Below the pieces are notes generated by a model. The model was not told where the DNA came from. It was given only the letters and a program-made list of their open reading frames with translations, and did not search any database. Both the position numbers and the translations under genes were made by a program. A stretch of DNA of 38,034 nt from a virus: positions 1-38,034 of the IMG/VR virus record IMGVR_UViG_3300020455_000038. One strand, 5' to 3'. Positions within the stretch are counted from its first letter, which is position 1, and each line of letters starts with the position of its first letter. Positions 1-38,034 of this stretch are shown here, one piece after another.

Positions 1-120
1 ATGCATTAGATTGAGTTAAGTAAGTTGATGATGCATTAGACTGCGTTAAATAAGTTGAAGATGCATTTGATTGCGTTAGATAGGTACTAGACGCAGAGGA
101 TGTTGTTAGATAATTACTTA
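1..120. repeat. Left copy of the terminal overlap
   Basis: These 120 bases equal 37915-38034 except at positions 38, 41 and 49. All three differences are synonymous in the fibre frame (Ser, Gln and Leu codons). Joining the two copies restores one open frame. The copy consists of four 30-bp fibre repeat units. It is probably the overlap of a circular assembly; a true direct terminal repeat, or slippage within a longer repeat array, cannot be excluded. Confidence 0.85.
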
Positions 121-17798: not shown

Positions 17799-18473
17799 TT
17801 ATTTTTCTGAACACATCAATTCATCTAAAATGTGATTATTGTGATTTTTAACAAATCTGACCATTTTAGAATTGTTGCCTTTCCGGAATTTCCAATTGGT
17901 ATATCTGAAAGTGCCATGTAACATTTGATCCCCTACTTTATAACAAAGCTGATTTTGGTGGTGATCTTTACATATTTTTGAAACAAACCATGTTTCTTCA
18001 ATGCACTCTTTAACTACTTGAGAAATCGCAGATCTAGTAATGTTGTAAATGTCATGTATTTCGGATTGTAGTGTCCACTTCCCTTTTAAGGTTTCACAAA
18101 TCATGTGGCATCCTATAATTCTTTTTTGAAGGGTGGATCTAAAATACGTGATCAATCTATTGTGTGCAGCATTTTCTGCATAATTCACGAAATTTTTATA
18201 GTTAAGTATTTCTAATTCCATCTCTAAAGCTGAAATCATATAGTCGTTTGTTTTGGAGTCTTTTATAAGTGTGTCTTCTTGGGTTAAGGTATATTCATTT
18301 GAGTTAGCCGTATCCTCGTTAGTTAAATCCCTTTTTTGCCCCTTCCAGTATTTTAATTGCTCGTTTAAAGTACCTTGTCTATTATCGGATTTGGCTATTT
18401 TGGTTTCGTTTTCTGGACTTGCCCCTTTTGGGTTGTCATTTAATCTATAGTCGTATGATCCGTAGTTATTCAT
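17799..18473 (-). CDS. Winged-helix-like DNA-binding protein
   Basis: The product is 224 residues from ATG 18473, chosen because AAAGGAG lies about six bases upstream; the frame further up has no site. The first 90 residues are polar and probably disordered (NDNPKGASPENETKIAKSDN). From about residue 95 a helical core leads to LQSEIHDIYNITRSAISQVV, a helix-turn-helix, then VSKICKDHHQNQLCYKVGDQM, like the wing of a MarR-type fold. It may be a repressor or a replication initiator. It overlaps the recombinase-like gene by eight bases. The DNA-binding call is fair; the specific role is unknown. Confidence 0.6.
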   Translation of the reverse strand: MNNYGSYDYRLNDNPKGASPENETKIAKSDNRQGTLNEQLKYWKGQKRDLTNEDTANSNEYTLTQEDTLIKDSKTNDYMISALEMELEILNYKNFVNYAENAAHNRLITYFRSTLQKRIIGCHMICETLKGKWTLQSEIHDIYNITRSAISQVVKECIEETWFVSKICKDHHQNQLCYKVGDQMLHGTFRYTNWKFRKGNNSKMVRFVKNHNNHILDELMCSEK

Positions 18474-19119
18474 CTTTTTCTCCTTTTTTGATGACAGATG
18501 AAATAGCAGATTTACTCCATCTTTCCTTTCCATAAAATGTCTTTACGTTGAGTTTCTCTAACCTGGCTGCAAGCTGAGATAACGAGAGAAGGCCATCAGT
18601 AGACTCTATTTTTCTAATGATTGGCAAGACTTTTTTTCTAAATGACGTAAAGTCATCTTTTCTTCTAGCCGATACATCCGGCCTTTTTTTGCCCCTTGGC
18701 GCGCCAAGTTTATATCCTTTTGCCCTACGTTCTGCCAGGCCGTGTCTGATGTTTCTAGAGCGTTCTCTATGCTCATACATAACAACCTCATATAGCATTT
18801 TAGTATGCTCTCTAGCATCAATCGGATTGCTCATATACTTTGAGTCTAAACCTACAAAACGTGGTCTTTTTTCTAGTAGAATAGTCAGCGCGACTAGCTT
18901 AGTACTTAGGTGCCTCATATCGTTTGTCACAATAGTAGCATCCTGGAATGCAGCGGAATTAATGCATTCTTCTAGCGTATAAAATCTCTCCTGGTTACGT
19001 TCAACATATGTTTCTATAAGTTTACCGCCATCCAGGAGAAAAATATCTACCGCCTCATAGTTGTATGGCTCATCTACGAAATGATAAGCCATAATTTTTC
19101 CGCGAAAATATTTAGGCAT
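18466..19119 (-). CDS. Serine-recombinase-like protein lacking catalytic residues
   Basis: The product is 217 residues. Residues about 58-145 (ATIVTNDMRHLSTKLVALTI, MLYEVVMYEHRERSRNIRHG, LAERRAKGYKLGAPRG) follow the second half of the resolvase catalytic domain and its long helix, and residues 175-212 (LSLSQLAARLEKLNVKTFYG, then KERWSKSAISSVIKK) follow the recombinase DNA-binding helices. The usual N-terminal Y.RVS with the nucleophilic Ser is not found, and the second Arg of DR..R is replaced. It is probably a DNA-binding derivative, not an active recombinase. The start has AAGGA four bases upstream and overlaps the previous gene by eight bases. Confidence 0.65.
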   Translation of the reverse strand: MPKYFRGKIMAYHFVDEPYNYEAVDIFLLDGGKLIETYVERNQERFYTLEECINSAAFQDATIVTNDMRHLSTKLVALTILLEKRPRFVGLDSKYMSNPIDAREHTKMLYEVVMYEHRERSRNIRHGLAERRAKGYKLGAPRGKKRPDVSARRKDDFTSFRKKVLPIIRKIESTDGLLSLSQLAARLEKLNVKTFYGKERWSKSAISSVIKKGEKDE

Positions 19120-19796: not shown

Positions 19797-19814
19797 TTTT
19801 TTCTCCCAAAGTTG

Positions 19815-19832
19815 TGGGGGATTTCTCCCCCA
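19815..19832. promoter_or_regulatory. Seven-pair GC-rich hairpin between two early genes
   Basis: TGGGGGA, TTTC, TCCCCCA is a perfect stem with a four-base loop; in the minus-strand RNA the loop is GAAA, a GNRA tetraloop. It lies after the stop at 19835 and just before the ribosome site of the next gene. No U-run follows on the minus strand. On the plus strand TTTT follows, but no plus-strand gene precedes it. It may be a processing or stability element. Confidence 0.55.
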
Positions 19833-19834
19833 TT

Positions 19835-20149
19835 TTATGATATTAAAATTTCGTCTGTTTTTTGAATAATTCTAAAACTCGCAATAGTATTAGCAATAAT
19901 TTGATTTTGTTCTTGAGACAAAGAATGTATCCCTCTGTCTTTAATATCCATTGTGTCTAAATAATTTCTTCTAAGTTCAGCAAATTTACACAATTCTATT
20001 TGTAAATCTCCAAGATCATCAAATACTCTGTAGACAGATTTGATAGTTGATAATTCTAATTTATCATCTTCTCTTTTTACCAACTTTAGACCTAAATTAT
20101 TTGCCTGGCCTTCTGCACAATACTCATAAACACTTAATTCCTTTTCCAT
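19835..20149 (-). CDS. Hypothetical 104-residue protein, first leftward gene
   Basis: The product starts MEKELSVYEYCAEGQANNLG and is mostly helical (VYRVFDDLGDLQIELCKFAE, SLSQEQNQIIANTIASFRII). There is no membrane segment and no known motif that I can name. It is the first minus-strand gene beyond the palindromic control region, with its start 34 bases from the edge of the palindrome. A -35/-10 pair in the palindrome (20192-20219) points towards it. As an immediate-early gene it may encode a host-takeover or regulatory protein; that is inference from position. Confidence 0.6.
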   Translation of the reverse strand: MEKELSVYEYCAEGQANNLGLKLVKREDDKLELSTIKSVYRVFDDLGDLQIELCKFAELRRNYLDTMDIKDRGIHSLSQEQNQIIANTIASFRIIQKTDEILIS

Positions 20150-20182: not shown

Positions 20183-20237
20183 CGTATTACTAATATAGTA
20201 TCGTATTTTTAAAATACAAGAGTATATTAGTACTACG
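20183..20237. promoter_or_regulatory. 55-bp near-perfect palindrome in divergent control region
   Basis: Outer arms 20183-20197 (CGTATTACTAATATA) and 20223-20237 (TATATTAGTACTACG) pair at 14 of 15 positions. Inner arms form GTATTTT-T-AAAATAC at 20203-20217 with no mismatch. Both share one centre, base 20210. It lies between the divergent genes at 20149 and 20262. The latter encodes a ribbon-helix-helix protein, a class that usually binds such symmetric, repeated sites cooperatively. A self-regulated operator is the likeliest reading. Confidence 0.7.
20192..20219 (-). promoter_or_regulatory. Candidate sigma70-like promoter towards the leftward early operon
   Basis: The minus strand reads TTGTAT, 16 bases, TATATT. 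It lies wholly within the palindrome, so a bound regulator would block it. The symmetric TATATT at 20223-20228 on the plus strand may serve the rightward operon, but no good -35 was seen for it. Confidence 0.45.
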
Positions 20238-20261: not shown

Positions 20262-20456
20262 ATGACTAAGTATAAGCAGCAACATATTTATCTCAATGAA
20301 AACATTGTTTTAGAGTTAAAAGTTATTGCAAAAGAAGAACGTCAAAGTATTAGCAGAATATGTGAAAATGCTATTATAGATTTAATAAAAAGACGCAAAA
20401 AACGAAAAACCAGGATTGAAGAAATAGCCGATTTGGCAAGAGGTCAAAATGGTTAA
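20262..20456 (+). CDS. Ribbon-helix-helix regulator (Arc/CopG type)
   Basis: The product is 64 residues. TKYKQQHIYLNENIVLELKV forms the ribbon strand and first helix, and SISRICENAIIDLIKRR the second helix, the layout of RHH regulators. A very basic tail (KRRKKRKTRIEEIADLARGQ) follows. It would bind DNA as a dimer of dimers. The AGGA ribosome site lies about eight bases before the ATG. It is the first gene of the only rightward operon and sits 24 bases from a 55-bp palindrome, so it probably controls both directions. The call rests on pattern and setting. Confidence 0.75.
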   Translation: MTKYKQQHIYLNENIVLELKVIAKEERQSISRICENAIIDLIKRRKKRKTRIEEIADLARGQNG

Positions 20457-20775
20457 TAGAAATAAAAGACGAGGCTACGAGTTAGAAAAAGAGGTGCAAG
20501 ATTTTTTTCGTGAAAATGGTGTACCGGCCAAAAGAGTTTTTGGATCTGGAGCCTTTAAGGCAGCTAGTCCAGATCTAGAAGGTGACGTCAGAATTTTAAA
20601 TTATCTTGTTGAATGTAAACGCCGGAAGGATGGATTTAAAAATCTGTACTCCTGGCTAGCACATGATAACGCAGATTTTTTGTGTTTGAGGTCAGACAGA
20701 AACCCAAGGCTCTGGGTTTTACGAGAGCCAACATTACTCAAATTTTTAAAAAAGGAGTTCAAAAATAATGAGTGA
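20449..20775 (+). CDS. Hjc-like Holliday-junction resolvase / PD-(D/E)XK nuclease
   Basis: The product is 108 residues. RRGYELEKEVQDFFRENGVP carries the N-terminal Glu, VFGSGAFKAASPDLEGDVRI the acidic motif (Asp42, Asp46), and LVECKRRKDG the E-x-K motif (Glu55, Lys57). The C-terminal WLAHDNADFLCLRSDRNPRL and LWVLREPTLLKFL close the fold. This is the standard order of phage resolvase-like nucleases. It would resolve branched DNA before packaging. The start lies eight bases inside the regulator gene, and the stop overlaps the SSB-like gene. Confidence 0.75.
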   Translation: MVNRNKRRGYELEKEVQDFFRENGVPAKRVFGSGAFKAASPDLEGDVRILNYLVECKRRKDGFKNLYSWLAHDNADFLCLRSDRNPRLWVLREPTLLKFLKKEFKNNE

Positions 20776-21304
20776 AGAAGAAGAAATATTCGCAAGTAGT
20801 TCTGACTCTAGTCAGTATATAAGTTGGAAAGCTAGAGATAAAAAATGGAAATCAAATGGCAATGAGGTATCAGCTAAAAATATTGCCTTAGATTTTTCAA
20901 CCTTAAAAACTGGATGGGGCATTTGGCCAGAAGGCCAAGCCATCACCTGGACGTTTGGCAGCAAGCCATCTCAACTACCTCAAAAACCAACTGATCAGCA
21001 TAAGCAAGGTTTTTATATTGAGGCTTATGTTGAGGAAGATAAACAGATGACCAAAAAAGTTTGGTCTAGCCTGGCATTTGGTGAACGTGAATCTATCCGG
21101 CTAATGCATAAGCAAGTCATTGGAACCATTAAAGACAATAAAGGCAAAATAGCGGTTTTTACAATTGATGGTGCTAATGAAACTATGAAAGTTGGCAAGG
21201 GTGACACTTGTACGGCTAAATGCACTTTTAAAGGTTGGTCAGCTAAACCAAATGAAGAGGTAGAAGATACCTCTAGTGATGATCCAATTTTTGACATTGA
21301 TTAA
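20768..21304 (+). CDS. SSB-like single-strand DNA-binding protein
   Basis: The product is 178 residues. The N-terminal 20 residues are acidic and serine-rich. The core is beta-rich with aromatic residues (YISWKARDKKWKSNG, KTGWGIWPEGQAITWTFGSK, FYIEAYVEEDKQMTKKVWSS), fitting a single-strand-binding barrel. The end (VEDTSSDDPIFDID) is an acidic tail with a hydrophobic core, as in SSB proteins. It lies between the resolvase-like and primase/helicase genes, the usual place for a phage SSB. AAGGAG lies before the ATG. Assignment is by composition, tail and context; no signature motif is decisive. Confidence 0.65.
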   Translation: MSEEEEIFASSSDSSQYISWKARDKKWKSNGNEVSAKNIALDFSTLKTGWGIWPEGQAITWTFGSKPSQLPQKPTDQHKQGFYIEAYVEEDKQMTKKVWSSLAFGERESIRLMHKQVIGTIKDNKGKIAVFTIDGANETMKVGKGDTCTAKCTFKGWSAKPNEEVEDTSSDDPIFDID

Positions 21305-23160
21305 TGATTGAAAAATACGCCAAAGAAATAGCAATTAAAATTCTGGGTGAGCCGAATAAAAAACTGTCTCGCCCAGATGAATTGCGCTATGGGTCTTTTG
21401 GATCTTTATCCATAGACACAAAAAAAGGCGTGGTATTCGACCATGAAGAAAATATAGGCTATGGCCTTGTCGATCTTATTAAGAAACATGGCCATGATCC
21501 TAAAACTTTTTTAGATGATATGGGCATTAATGATAAAAAGCCGGAAATCTCTAAATCTTATGAGTATTACAATGCGGATGGCGAACTAGTCTATGATGTT
21601 GTCCGCCTAGAGCCGAAATCCTTCCGCCAGAGGCGCAAAACGCCGGCCGGAATGGTATACGGCCTAAAAGGTATTACGCCCCTTCCCTACAACTTAAAAT
21701 CGCTCCTATTGGATATCGACATGGTCTTTATATGTGAAGGTGAAAAAGATTGTGATCGATTAAAAGAAATGGGATTAGTTGCAAGCTGCAATAGCGGTGG
21801 TGCCGGTAATTGGCAAAGCTGCATTAATAAATATTTTGAAGGCAAAGAAATAATTATTTTGCCAGATAATGATGAACCAGGAGAAAAACACGCCAAGCTA
21901 GTTTCTGAACAATTGCAAGGCATAGCTGCGTCTATTAAGATTTTAAATTTACCGGTAAAAGAAAAAGGTGATGTTTCAGACTGGATTAATGCCGGTGGTA
22001 CATCTGGTGAATTAATTAAGTTAGCAAAAGACGCAGAAACAAATGAACCAACGCAGCCATTTCAATCATTTAAATCTATAGATCCATTTTCTTTACCAAC
22101 TAGGGATTTTATATACGGCAAATGGATACGTAAATTTTGCAGCCTTACCATTGGCCAGGGCGGACTAGGTAAAAGTACACTTGTTCAAACAGAGGCTATT
22201 GCAATTGCTACCGGTAGAAATATTTTGGGAATCCAACCAAAATCTAGAGCAAAAGTTTGCTATCTAAATGCTGAAGATCCATTGGAAGAAACATTAAGAA
22301 AATGTCTAGCTATATGCCAGGCATTTGATATTCCGCAGAAAGAATTAGAAGGTTATTTATTTTTATCATCTGGAAGAGATGAAGACCTTACATTAGCAGC
22401 CGGTATAAATGGAGAGATCCAAGAGGCAAATTTTCAAAGAATTCAAAGGTTTTGTGCAGATAATGAAATTGACGTATTAATATTAGATCCGCTAGTAAAT
22501 TTAATAGATAATGCCCCAGAAACGAATGAGGTTTTAGCCGGCGTTATCAAAAGGTTATCAAGATTAGCTGATGAAGGTAAAGGGATGTCAGTAGAAATTG
22601 TGCATCATACACGCAAAACAAACAACCAGGACGTCACTATTGAGAGTTCTAGAGGTGGTAGTAGCCTCGTAAATGGAGTCCGCTATGGAAGGTTCCTTGT
22701 GCCAATGGACGCTGATACCGGTGTTAAAAGTGGCGTAGATAATCATTTAAATTTTTTTCGCGTTGAAGATGGAAAGAATAATCTGACTCCACCAGATAAA
22801 GCTAGATGGTTTGAGAAATCTGCGGAGCAATTAGCTAATAGTGATTTTGTTGCCGTTGTTAAACCTTGGAAATATCCGGATGCTTTCGATGGAATTACAA
22901 AAGAAATGGCGCGTAAAGTACAGATACTATTAGACCAGGCAGATCCACCCAAGAGAGAGAATATAAGAGCCGGAGAATGGGGCGGAAAGATAGTCGCTAG
23001 TGTTTGTGACCTGGACGTAAATAATAAGAGCCACAAGTCAAAAATTTCTACTATTATTAAAACCTGGATAGATACAGATGTTTTACAGATTGTAGAAGAA
23101 TATGACTCAACCCATTCAAGAAATGTAAAATGTCTAAGATCTGGGTCTAATAACTTATGA
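21304..23160 (+). CDS. TOPRIM-RepA type primase/helicase
   Basis: The product is 618 residues. The TOPRIM part is about residues 139-215: VFICEGEKDCDRLKEMGL with the Glu, and IIILPDNDEPGEKHA with the DxDxPG-like acidic pair. The RepA/DnaB-like ATPase follows from about 265: LTIGQGGLGKSTLVQTEA is Walker A, IDVLILDPLVNLIDN is Walker B, and VEIVHHTRKTNNQD and SSRGGSSLVNGVRYGRFLV are further motifs. An N-terminal zinc ribbon is missing, so primer synthesis is uncertain. It would open DNA at the fork. No phage DNA polymerase is encoded, so the host replisome must be used. The start overlaps the SSB-like stop by one base. Confidence 0.85.
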   Translation: MIEKYAKEIAIKILGEPNKKLSRPDELRYGSFGSLSIDTKKGVVFDHEENIGYGLVDLIKKHGHDPKTFLDDMGINDKKPEISKSYEYYNADGELVYDVVRLEPKSFRQRRKTPAGMVYGLKGITPLPYNLKSLLLDIDMVFICEGEKDCDRLKEMGLVASCNSGGAGNWQSCINKYFEGKEIIILPDNDEPGEKHAKLVSEQLQGIAASIKILNLPVKEKGDVSDWINAGGTSGELIKLAKDAETNEPTQPFQSFKSIDPFSLPTRDFIYGKWIRKFCSLTIGQGGLGKSTLVQTEAIAIATGRNILGIQPKSRAKVCYLNAEDPLEETLRKCLAICQAFDIPQKELEGYLFLSSGRDEDLTLAAGINGEIQEANFQRIQRFCADNEIDVLILDPLVNLIDNAPETNEVLAGVIKRLSRLADEGKGMSVEIVHHTRKTNNQDVTIESSRGGSSLVNGVRYGRFLVPMDADTGVKSGVDNHLNFFRVEDGKNNLTPPDKARWFEKSAEQLANSDFVAVVKPWKYPDAFDGITKEMARKVQILLDQADPPKRENIRAGEWGGKIVASVCDLDVNNKSHKSKISTIIKTWIDTDVLQIVEEYDSTHSRNVKCLRSGSNNL

Positions 23161-23360
23161 ATAAAAAAATAGCTGAAGAATTCGCATTAAAACCTATTAC
23201 TCCATCAAAATCATATTTTACAATAAATCGATGGACTAGGAAAAGTTTCTTGGAATGGAAAAAGAATGAAAATCGTAAGGCCAAATCCAGTCGCAAGAGC
23301 CATGCTGAAAAATCGACAGTTCAAGCAGCAAACAATTCCCAACAAGAAGAAAATAACTAA
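23157..23360 (+). CDS. Hypothetical 67-residue basic protein
   Basis: The product begins NKKIAEEFALKPITPSKSYF and has TRKSFLEWKKNENRKAKSSR, then a Gln/Asn/Glu-rich end. The helical, highly basic middle suggests nucleic-acid binding. Its ATG overlaps the primase/helicase stop in an ATGA junction, so it is likely translated with it. No family is recognised. It is followed by a hairpin at 23391-23431. Confidence 0.6.
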   Translation: MNKKIAEEFALKPITPSKSYFTINRWTRKSFLEWKKNENRKAKSSRKSHAEKSTVQAANNSQQEENN

Positions 23361-36436: not shown

Positions 36437-38034
36437 CTATCCACATTGAAAAGCTAAAGCCGTTGCGTCTGAAACTGATATTCCACTACCACCACCGCCA
36501 CCGCCAGAAACTGTCTGCCAGGAAGGCGCAGACCCAGAACCATTTGATGTTAATACTTGTCCGCTAGATCCGTAATTTGCTCCGCCCAAACCCCAAGCTC
36601 CATTTGCTAAAATCCTTAATCTTTCGGCAGAACTATCACCATCATTAGAGCCATTATAAAATTCTAATTGACCACCAGAGCCTCTTATTTCTAAATCATT
36701 TCCGGCTAGCCTAACTATCCCTTTATAAGTGTCTGATTGATTTAATTGTATAGCCGGAGATGCAGAACTTCTAATTTCAAGCCTTTCTTCTGGTGTATTT
36801 GTACCCACTCCTACATTGCCACCAGATTTTACACTTAAACAATCAGAACCATTATTTTCATGTATTATAAAATTACTAGAATTTGCTTTTAGCCACCATT
36901 CTGATGTACCACTTCTTTGAAACTCAAGCATATAATCAGAACTAGTACTGTTTAAAGTAAGTTGACCAGTTGCATTACTTGTAAACACACCTTTAGTAGC
37001 ACCTATGGTTGTTGCATTAGTTATTTGATTTGAGTTGGCATCTAATGTGCCACCAAGTTGCGGTGTTGTATCATCAATAAGATCATTCATTGATCCGCCA
37101 CCGCCGGATGAAACAGTTCCCCATGAAACAGTTCCAGATCCATTAGTTTGTAGTACCTGGTTTGCAGCACCATCAGCGGTTGGAAGAGTAAAAGCATTAG
37201 CCACAGTAATAGCACCAGTCGAGGCTACTTTAAGTAATTCAGAGTTAGAATTATTCTTAAAAACTATAGGATTAGTGCCTTGCTGAATCTTAAAGATTGT
37301 CTCATTGCTCGCATGGTACATATAGAAATCGTTGCCAGTTCCTAAAGCAATTGTCGTATTATCATCTGCCTTTAAAATATTACCGGCTGAATACCAAACA
37401 AGATTACTATTATTTCCGTTTAATTGAAAATCTATGCCGTAGTTATTCGCGCCATCAAATGTAAACATTGAGTCTACATGGACATTTGCTGAATTATTAA
37501 ATGTTACATTTCCGGTAAAAGTACCACCGCTAGTCGGCATTCCACTTGAACCACCACTAGCAGTTTGCCAAGTAGGTGCGGAACTAGAGCCATTAGATGT
37601 TAATACTTGACCACTTGTACCATAATTTGCTCCGGATAATCCTATCTGCCCAGATGAGCCAATTCTAAATTTTTCAGAGTTTCCACCAGTTTTAAAAATC
37701 ATATCACCGGTGTAACTAATATTGCCGTGATCTGTATCACCGCTATGTCCCATATTTATTTGGGCAAGTGTTCCATTACCATTGGAATTCCCTAGATTAA
37801 TTACACCAGTTGTCGATCCAGAGCCATGATTTATTGTTATATCACCGGTAAATGTACCACCGGTTTTTGGCATATATGTAGAACTTGCATTGGATTGAGT
37901 TAAATAGGTACTAGATGCATTAGATTGAGTTAAGTAAGTTGATGATGCATTTGATTGCGTTAGATAAGTTGAAGATGCATTTGATTGCGTTAGATAGGTA
38001 CTAGACGCAGAGGATGTTGTTAGATAATTACTTA
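36437..38034 (-). CDS. Tail fibre protein, C-terminal part (continues from the left edge)
   Basis: This is the other half of the fibre starting at 1267; the frame is open from the right edge to the stop at 36437, and an internal ATG at 37873 (MPKTGGTFTGDITIN) is not the true start. At the edge lie decapeptide repeats ASSTYLTQSN. TGGTFTGDITINHGSG and TSGGTFTGNVTFNNSA are fibre repeats. The linker NYGTSGQVLTSNGSSSAPTW occurs in several copies. The last part (TPEERLEIRSSASPAIQLNQ, LEIRGSGGQLEFYNGSNDGD) is a beta-helix end, and the protein stops at ALAFQCG with no S74 domain. With the left portion the protein has 914 residues if the ends are joined at the overlap. Confidence 0.85.
   Translation of the reverse strand, partial: SNYLTTSSASSTYLTQSNASSTYLTQSNASSTYLTQSNASSTYLTQSNASSTYMPKTGGTFTGDITINHGSGSTTGVINLGNSNGNGTLAQINMGHSGDTDHGNISYTGDMIFKTGGNSEKFRIGSSGQIGLSGANYGTSGQVLTSNGSSSAPTWQTASGGSSGMPTSGGTFTGNVTFNNSANVHVDSMFTFDGANNYGIDFQLNGNNSNLVWYSAGNILKADDNTTIALGTGNDFYMYHASNETIFKIQQGTNPIVFKNNSNSELLKVASTGAITVANAFTLPTADGAANQVLQTNGSGTVSWGTVSSGGGGSMNDLIDDTTPQLGGTLDANSNQITNATTIGATKGVFTSNATGQLTLNSTSSDYMLEFQRSGTSEWWLKANSSNFIIHENNGSDCLSVKSGGNVGVGTNTPEERLEIRSSASPAIQLNQSDTYKGIVRLAGNDLEIRGSGGQLEFYNGSNDGDSSAERLRILANGAWGLGGANYGSSGQVLTSNGSGSAPSWQTVSGGGGGGSGISVSDATALAFQCG
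37885..38034. repeat. Five 30-bp tandem repeats coding for decapeptides
   Basis: Units start at 37885, 37915, 37945, 37975 and 38005. In the minus frame they encode variants of ASSTYLTQSN. The last four units equal the four units at the left edge. The unit at 38005 is the most divergent. Array length may be wrong in the assembly, because short reads cannot count such units. Confidence 0.8.
37915..38034. repeat. Right copy of the terminal overlap
   Basis: This is the counterpart of bases 1-120, with differences at 37952, 37955 and 37963. Removing one copy gives a circle of 37914 bases in which the fibre frame is continuous (2745 bases, 915 codons with the stop). Confidence 0.85.

Follow-up and report, generated by a model that had tools for sequence, protein, structure and literature searches.

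The locus raises the question of what a long imperfect palindrome does between two divergent genes, one of which encodes a small ribbon-helix-helix (RHH) protein. We addressed it within the window, by which we mean the whole 38,034-nt stretch of DNA that was analysed, and by comparison with loci from relatives. The palindrome sits between the starts at 20149 (minus strand) and 20262 (plus strand). Its arms, 20183–20209 and 20211–20237, pair at 23 of 27 positions around base 20210; offsets 1–7 all pair (inner 7/7), as do 14 of the 15 offsets from 13 to 27 (outer). This is the top symmetry for 27-bp arms in the entire window (runner-up, 17). None of 2,000 shuffles of the 113-bp gap reached 23 (best, 20), Markov shuffles of the whole window gave maxima of 17–18, and a separate inverted-repeat score of the region beat 60 of 60 shuffles. 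A preliminary description of this DNA had reported both the nested symmetry and its place in the only divergent gene pair, and both are reproduced here: 20149(−)/20262(+) is the sole divergent junction between substantial ORFs. Phage records held no DNA match to the region.

The region could act as RNA, as a hairpin, attenuator or terminator instead of a protein site, since a hairpin is predicted on both strands (−17 kcal/mol; z-scores −3.8 and −3.2). Such folding is, however, expected of any DNA palindrome. There is no Rfam match and no terminator-like site at the palindrome, the inner stem is broken in the relative L003, and the arms in relatives are short, with spacers of 12 or 22–23 nt. 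We therefore regard an RNA-level element as very improbable. Elsewhere, between two minus-strand genes at 19814–19833, the plus strand carries a strong G-C hairpin (GTGGGGGATTTCTCCCCCAT) followed by a T-rich tail.

The rightward gene had been described as an RHH regulator, and both profile and fold agree. Its 64-residue product matches Arc-like repressors of the PHROG collection (E 3e-5) and misses the curated threshold of Pfam RHH_3 (16.8 bits, cut-off 21.6). An AlphaFold model built on an alignment of 19 relatives (pLDDT 89) is extended over residues 1–12 and helical over 13–26 and 30–62; the predicted fold thus shows the layout of the RHH (MetJ/Arc) superfamily, a ribbon strand at the N-terminus and then two helices, in about 45–60 residues. 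The model is of a monomer, and the RHH strand pairs only in the dimer. Foldseek places RHH proteins first among PDB entries, with a probability of 0.99 although E is only about 0.1; CopASO, StnY, CdbA and CopG are best and Arc is lower down. Phage records held no protein match, genome contigs searched with the RHH family returned nothing, and we found no paper in the open-access literature describing an RHH protein in this slot.

The RHH gene opens a block (20262–23360) that is the sole group of large plus-strand genes. The other large ORFs are on the minus strand, among them the leftward unit and the head, portal, terminase, endolysin and tail genes. The features of the locus are collected in Table 1.

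Table 1. Features of the divergent locus, and the corresponding small gene of phage CRP-823.
Feature	Position	Strand	Remark
Degenerate serine-recombinase-like protein	18469–19119	−	phrog_125, E 1e-3
104-aa protein, first gene of the leftward unit	19835–20149	−	No assigned function
Imperfect palindrome, candidate operator region	20183–20237	.	55 bp, centre 20210
Outer arms TACTAATATA / TATATTAGTA			Include TACTA 20188–20192 and 20228–20232
Extra TACTA box, left arm	20188–20192	−	Kept in L003
Leftward sigma70-like promoter TTGTAT-16-TATATT	20192–20219	−	Common to relatives
Putative left operator box TAGTATCGT	20196–20204	+	Family consensus TAGTACCRT
Putative right operator box TTAGTACTA, read inward	20227–20235	−	Family consensus AYGGTACTW; 31 bp from left box
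RHH regulator, putative autorepressor, 64 aa	20262–20456	+	Shares 8 nt with next gene
PD-(D/E)XK / Hjc-like endonuclease, 108 aa	20449–20775	+	
OB/SSB-like protein, 178 aa	20768–21304	+	Function suggested by position and weak fold matches
Toprim + AAA primase-helicase, 618 aa	21304–23160	+	
Last small ORF of rightward operon, 67 aa	23157–23360	+	
CRP823_12, 53-aa 'hypothetical protein'	3316–3477 of L370		RHH-like by eye

The 178-aa protein is beta-rich, and its OB/SSB-like label is given on weak grounds. The top PDB match of its model is a phiC31 integrase–RDF fusion (9teh_I; E 0.012, probability 0.97, TM only 0.35), notable with a recombinase-like gene nearby. The leftward unit contains that gene, several small proteins of no known function and a RecE-like nuclease. 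Relatives of the degenerate serine-recombinase-like protein occur at loci L060 and L095, and L034 has a clearly matching recombinase in its leftward operon. The ends of the window (1–82 and 37886–38009) carry the same kind of 30-bp tandem repeat, adjoining tail-fibre genes; the record may be circular, or the assembly may have broken off within the repeat at its ends.

It is common for an RHH antitoxin gene to lie ahead of its toxin gene and overlap it, and for the antitoxin to bind a palindrome in its own promoter, and the RHH and endonuclease genes might on that ground be read as a type II toxin–antitoxin pair with an autoregulatory operator. This is extremely improbable. The downstream gene encodes a nuclease of the Hjc/PD-(D/E)XK kind, is a constant member of a replication operon of four genes and matches no toxin family, and all antitoxin and defence families fell under the cut-off.

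That operon recurs in relatives, which we gathered by searches with the endonuclease and primase families and surveyed by script. An RHH gene directly precedes the endonuclease gene at 52 loci, equivalent to about 42 distinct contigs because the two family searches overlap. At all 52 an SSB-like gene comes next and a primase(-helicase) gene is present, and at 44 the longest upstream ORF, chosen by a crude rule, lies on the opposite strand (the other eight gave a plus-strand ORF). The same RHH–endonuclease–SSB–primase operon is found on a 34.6-kb contig in a metagenome-assembled genome, Gammaproteobacteria MED581 (NZJB01000003.1; L333), probably a phage contig binned with it. At 27 other loci the slot holds a Cro-like HTH gene, with a divergent upstream ORF in 27 of 27. 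The divergent ORFs of 15 non-RHH loci comprise 11 with HTH and S24 domains (CI-like), two with HTH only (L071 and L075) and two with neither (L066 and L110). In a quick endonuclease tree, with long branches that include the window's and with the labels of ten rows assigned manually, a single branch (SH-aLRT 95) has the RHH type on one side.

Roseobacter phage CRP-823 has a comparable early region, with a divergent start, a 53-aa gene and then a PD-(D/E)XK gene related to that of the window. Its genes for a single-stranded DNA-binding protein and a primase/helicase come later, with extra genes between, unlike the window. The 53-aa protein matches the RHH family profile weakly and has no Pfam RHH match, and no profile link was detected between the SSB-like gene of the window and the CRP-823 SSB. 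The cultured roseophage group with this CRP-823-like early layout is reported to be without an integrase in almost all members (PMC12629253).

These comparisons bear on the earlier proposal that the gap is a switch setting the replication genes against the other operon. Such a two-state switch would pit the RHH protein against some unrecognised regulator encoded leftward, the two competing at the region as Cro and CI do. Phages that have a CI-like S24 repressor on the divergent side do carry a Cro-like gene in this slot, and the small uncharacterised proteins and the recombinase-like protein of the leftward operon might include such a partner. However, the leftward proteins tested gave no match to CI, S24 or HTH_3, so that the divergent HTH + S24 gene of a Cro/CI pair is absent among them, and the slot gene is RHH, not an HTH Cro. 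No integrase family was matched among the window proteins scanned (some small ORFs lay outside the scan), and the near absence of integrases from the cultured phages of similar early layout points the same way. We consider the switch unlikely. A negative-feedback repressor is the simpler reading, because no second regulator was recognised in the leftward genes tested.

In the RHH subfamily with the ribbon QQQLYLS, the gap holds a pair of boxes, TAGTACCRT...AYGGTACTW, whose starts are 21 or 31–32 bp apart and whose distance to the RHH gene is nearly constant. Of 11 non-redundant subfamily relatives, 10 score 15–18 of 18 for this dyad and L032 scores 14; these scores are descriptive because the consensus came from the same loci. 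The window was left out of the derivation. Its boxes, TAGTATCGT (20196) and TTAGTACTA (20227), score 15/18 at a distance of 31 bp; 8 of 400 shuffles did as well, and this is one of only two such box pairs in its 38 kb. At 38 loci with a related endonuclease and other regulators the score never exceeds 14. The RHH set (15 loci, four without a dyad) scores higher than these (Mann–Whitney p 3e-5), the consensus having been derived from the very subfamily loci scored.

The boxes are tied to a leftward promoter. The −35/−10 pair that had been noted inside the palindrome, TTGTAT at 20219–20214 and TATATT at 20197–20192 with 16 nt between, scores only 7.5, under the threshold of the promoter scanner, but is common to relatives. 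There it takes the form TTGTAA or TTGACA, 17 nt and a TATATT-like −10; L003 and several others have TTGTAA, and TTGTAW-16/17-TATATT is the shared form that includes the window. When the window is aligned with relatives, the two boxes are in register together with both promoter elements, whose plus-strand letters are AATATA for the −10 and TACAA for the −35. Moreover, a 44-bp promoter–operator profile made from seven relatives locates the block at 20192 in the window; one of 500 local shuffles was as good, and an unrelated stretch elsewhere in the window has a marginally higher score. No convincing rightward promoter was found. Because the boxes lie in register over a shared leftward promoter, the palindrome region is most likely the RHH operator.

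The family dyad is centred at about 20215.5 in the window, as opposed to 20210 for the palindrome. The centre at 20210 therefore describes a second, window-specific symmetry, to which TACTA (20188) and TAGTA (20228) contribute as well; on sequence, the protein may use either of the two. The one close relative that we found, L003 (RHH protein 97% identical; 94–97% protein identity across the RHH operon), bears on its importance. Five differences separate the two in 201 bp, four of them within the palindrome. Two fall at already mismatched pairs, two break pairs among the inner seven, and none touches the 14 paired outer positions; with four changes only, the sparing of the outer pairs is suggestive at best. 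The family-dyad score of L003 is 14/18, equalled by 60 of 400 shuffles of its own sequence and so not clearly better. The nested palindrome is thus not supported as the functional unit: what relatives have in common is a pair of separate boxes, and L003 has lost part of the inner symmetry. Symmetry is kept in relatives as far as the boxes of one subfamily are concerned and lost in the inner arms, and the paired changes in both arms that might have been expected are absent from the four palindrome differences between L003 and the window.

The box pair is also confined in its distribution. No clear dyad of this kind is seen in the RHH relatives L004–L006, L060, L095 and L132, nor in the subfamilies around L258 and L274; hence either the operator has changed in these relatives or the motif is restricted to one subfamily and the window. 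By eye, the gap of some dyad-less relatives contains different repeats (ACATCTA, spaced by about 21 bp; TTATGCAA/TTGCATAA). Direct repeats close to ACATCTA, again about 21 bp apart, lie upstream of the RHH gene in L258, L264, L265, L267, L282 and L297 and are a possible subfamily-specific operator. Box counts elsewhere in the window are near chance, giving no additional operators. A scan of the collection for the window's arms, TACTAATAT-N-ATATTAGTA, found at least 119 stretches; among the matches listed, none adjoins a relative of the RHH gene, and they are chance occurrences in AT-rich DNA, evidence neither way.

RHH proteins can serve as centromere or copy-number proteins, and genes for a primase-helicase and an SSB-like protein adjoin the palindrome, which could in principle be a replication origin or a partition-like centromere bound by a ParR/Omega/CopG-like RHH protein. 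Against this, no ParA-like ATPase was recognised among the proteins scanned, there is one site and no iteron array, and in relatives the boxes track a promoter. An origin or centromere is thus quite improbable.

Taken together, the position of the site, its overlap with a promoter and the RHH fold are best explained by an autoregulatory repressor that acts at an operator shared by the divergent units, and a symmetric site overlapping a promoter beside the regulator's own gene is what the window has. On sequence grounds we hold it likely, with good confidence, that 20183–20237 is the operator of the adjoining 64-residue protein, serving negative feedback and leftward repression. That the protein binds there, that it represses and in which direction it acts are what we infer from this arrangement. 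RHH dimers would insert their two-stranded ribbon into the TAGTA-type boxes at 20188–20204 and 20227–20235, with Q6, H8 and Y10 the probable contact residues by analogy with Arc. Since the boxes are about three helical turns apart they would lie on one face of the DNA, where dimers, perhaps linked via the long second helix, may bridge or coat the DNA between them. Protein bound in this way would mask the promoter of the leftward unit, TTGTAW-16-TATATT, along with the DNA immediately preceding the RHH operon. This would place the RHH–endonuclease–SSB–primase operon under negative feedback and repress the early genes on the left, braking early transcription in the manner of Cro or Arc. Such an autoregulated brake is likelier than a two-state switch because no CI-like gene was recognised among the leftward genes tested. 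Of the preliminary interpretation, the RHH gene beside a putative symmetric operator, the divergent units and the replication genes on the right survive; the nested unit and the switch were put too strongly.

Known systems share parts of this arrangement. In phage P22, Arc and Mnt are small RHH proteins encoded beside a symmetric operator that overlies promoter elements, and the window resembles them in just this. It differs in a protein that falls below the Pfam RHH cut-offs, in boxes separated by two to three turns of the helix and in the place of its RHH gene, at a replication operon and not an antirepressor locus. Both P22 proteins are RHH repressors (PMC3325190). The lambdoid Cro gene likewise is first in a replication operon, with a divergent neighbour and an operator between, and phages with related endonucleases have Cro-like HTH genes in the matching slot; the window departs from it in having RHH instead of HTH, no recognised CI partner and one site region as against OR and OL. 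The repressors CopG and CopASO are among the nearest solved folds, but their plasmid copy-number or toxin–antitoxin context is missing. SvtR and AvtR, RHH proteins of viruses, are documented repressors of the promoters of their own genes, AvtR protecting about 100 nt between two promoters (PMC5569661). These proteins of archaeal viruses are alike in being viral RHH autorepressors and unlike in working with archaeal transcription machinery and, for AvtR, in being a tandem double RHH.

This type of control is well understood; the phage family hosting it is previously undescribed. A regulator and its probable operator can now be named for uncultured marine phages whose early control lacked description, and they offer an example in which an RHH protein takes the place that Cro has in phages with related endonucleases. 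We propose, tentatively and at somewhat less than even confidence, that in these widespread uncultured, probably lytic marine phages an RHH family in the Cro position reads helically phased box pairs, two or three turns apart, as a CI-less early brake, with box sequences specific to each subfamily and a single exchange of regulator type relative to the Cro-keeping phages. Relatives whose boxes lie 21 as against 32 bp apart provide a natural experiment on cooperation between small RHH dimers across turns of the helix.
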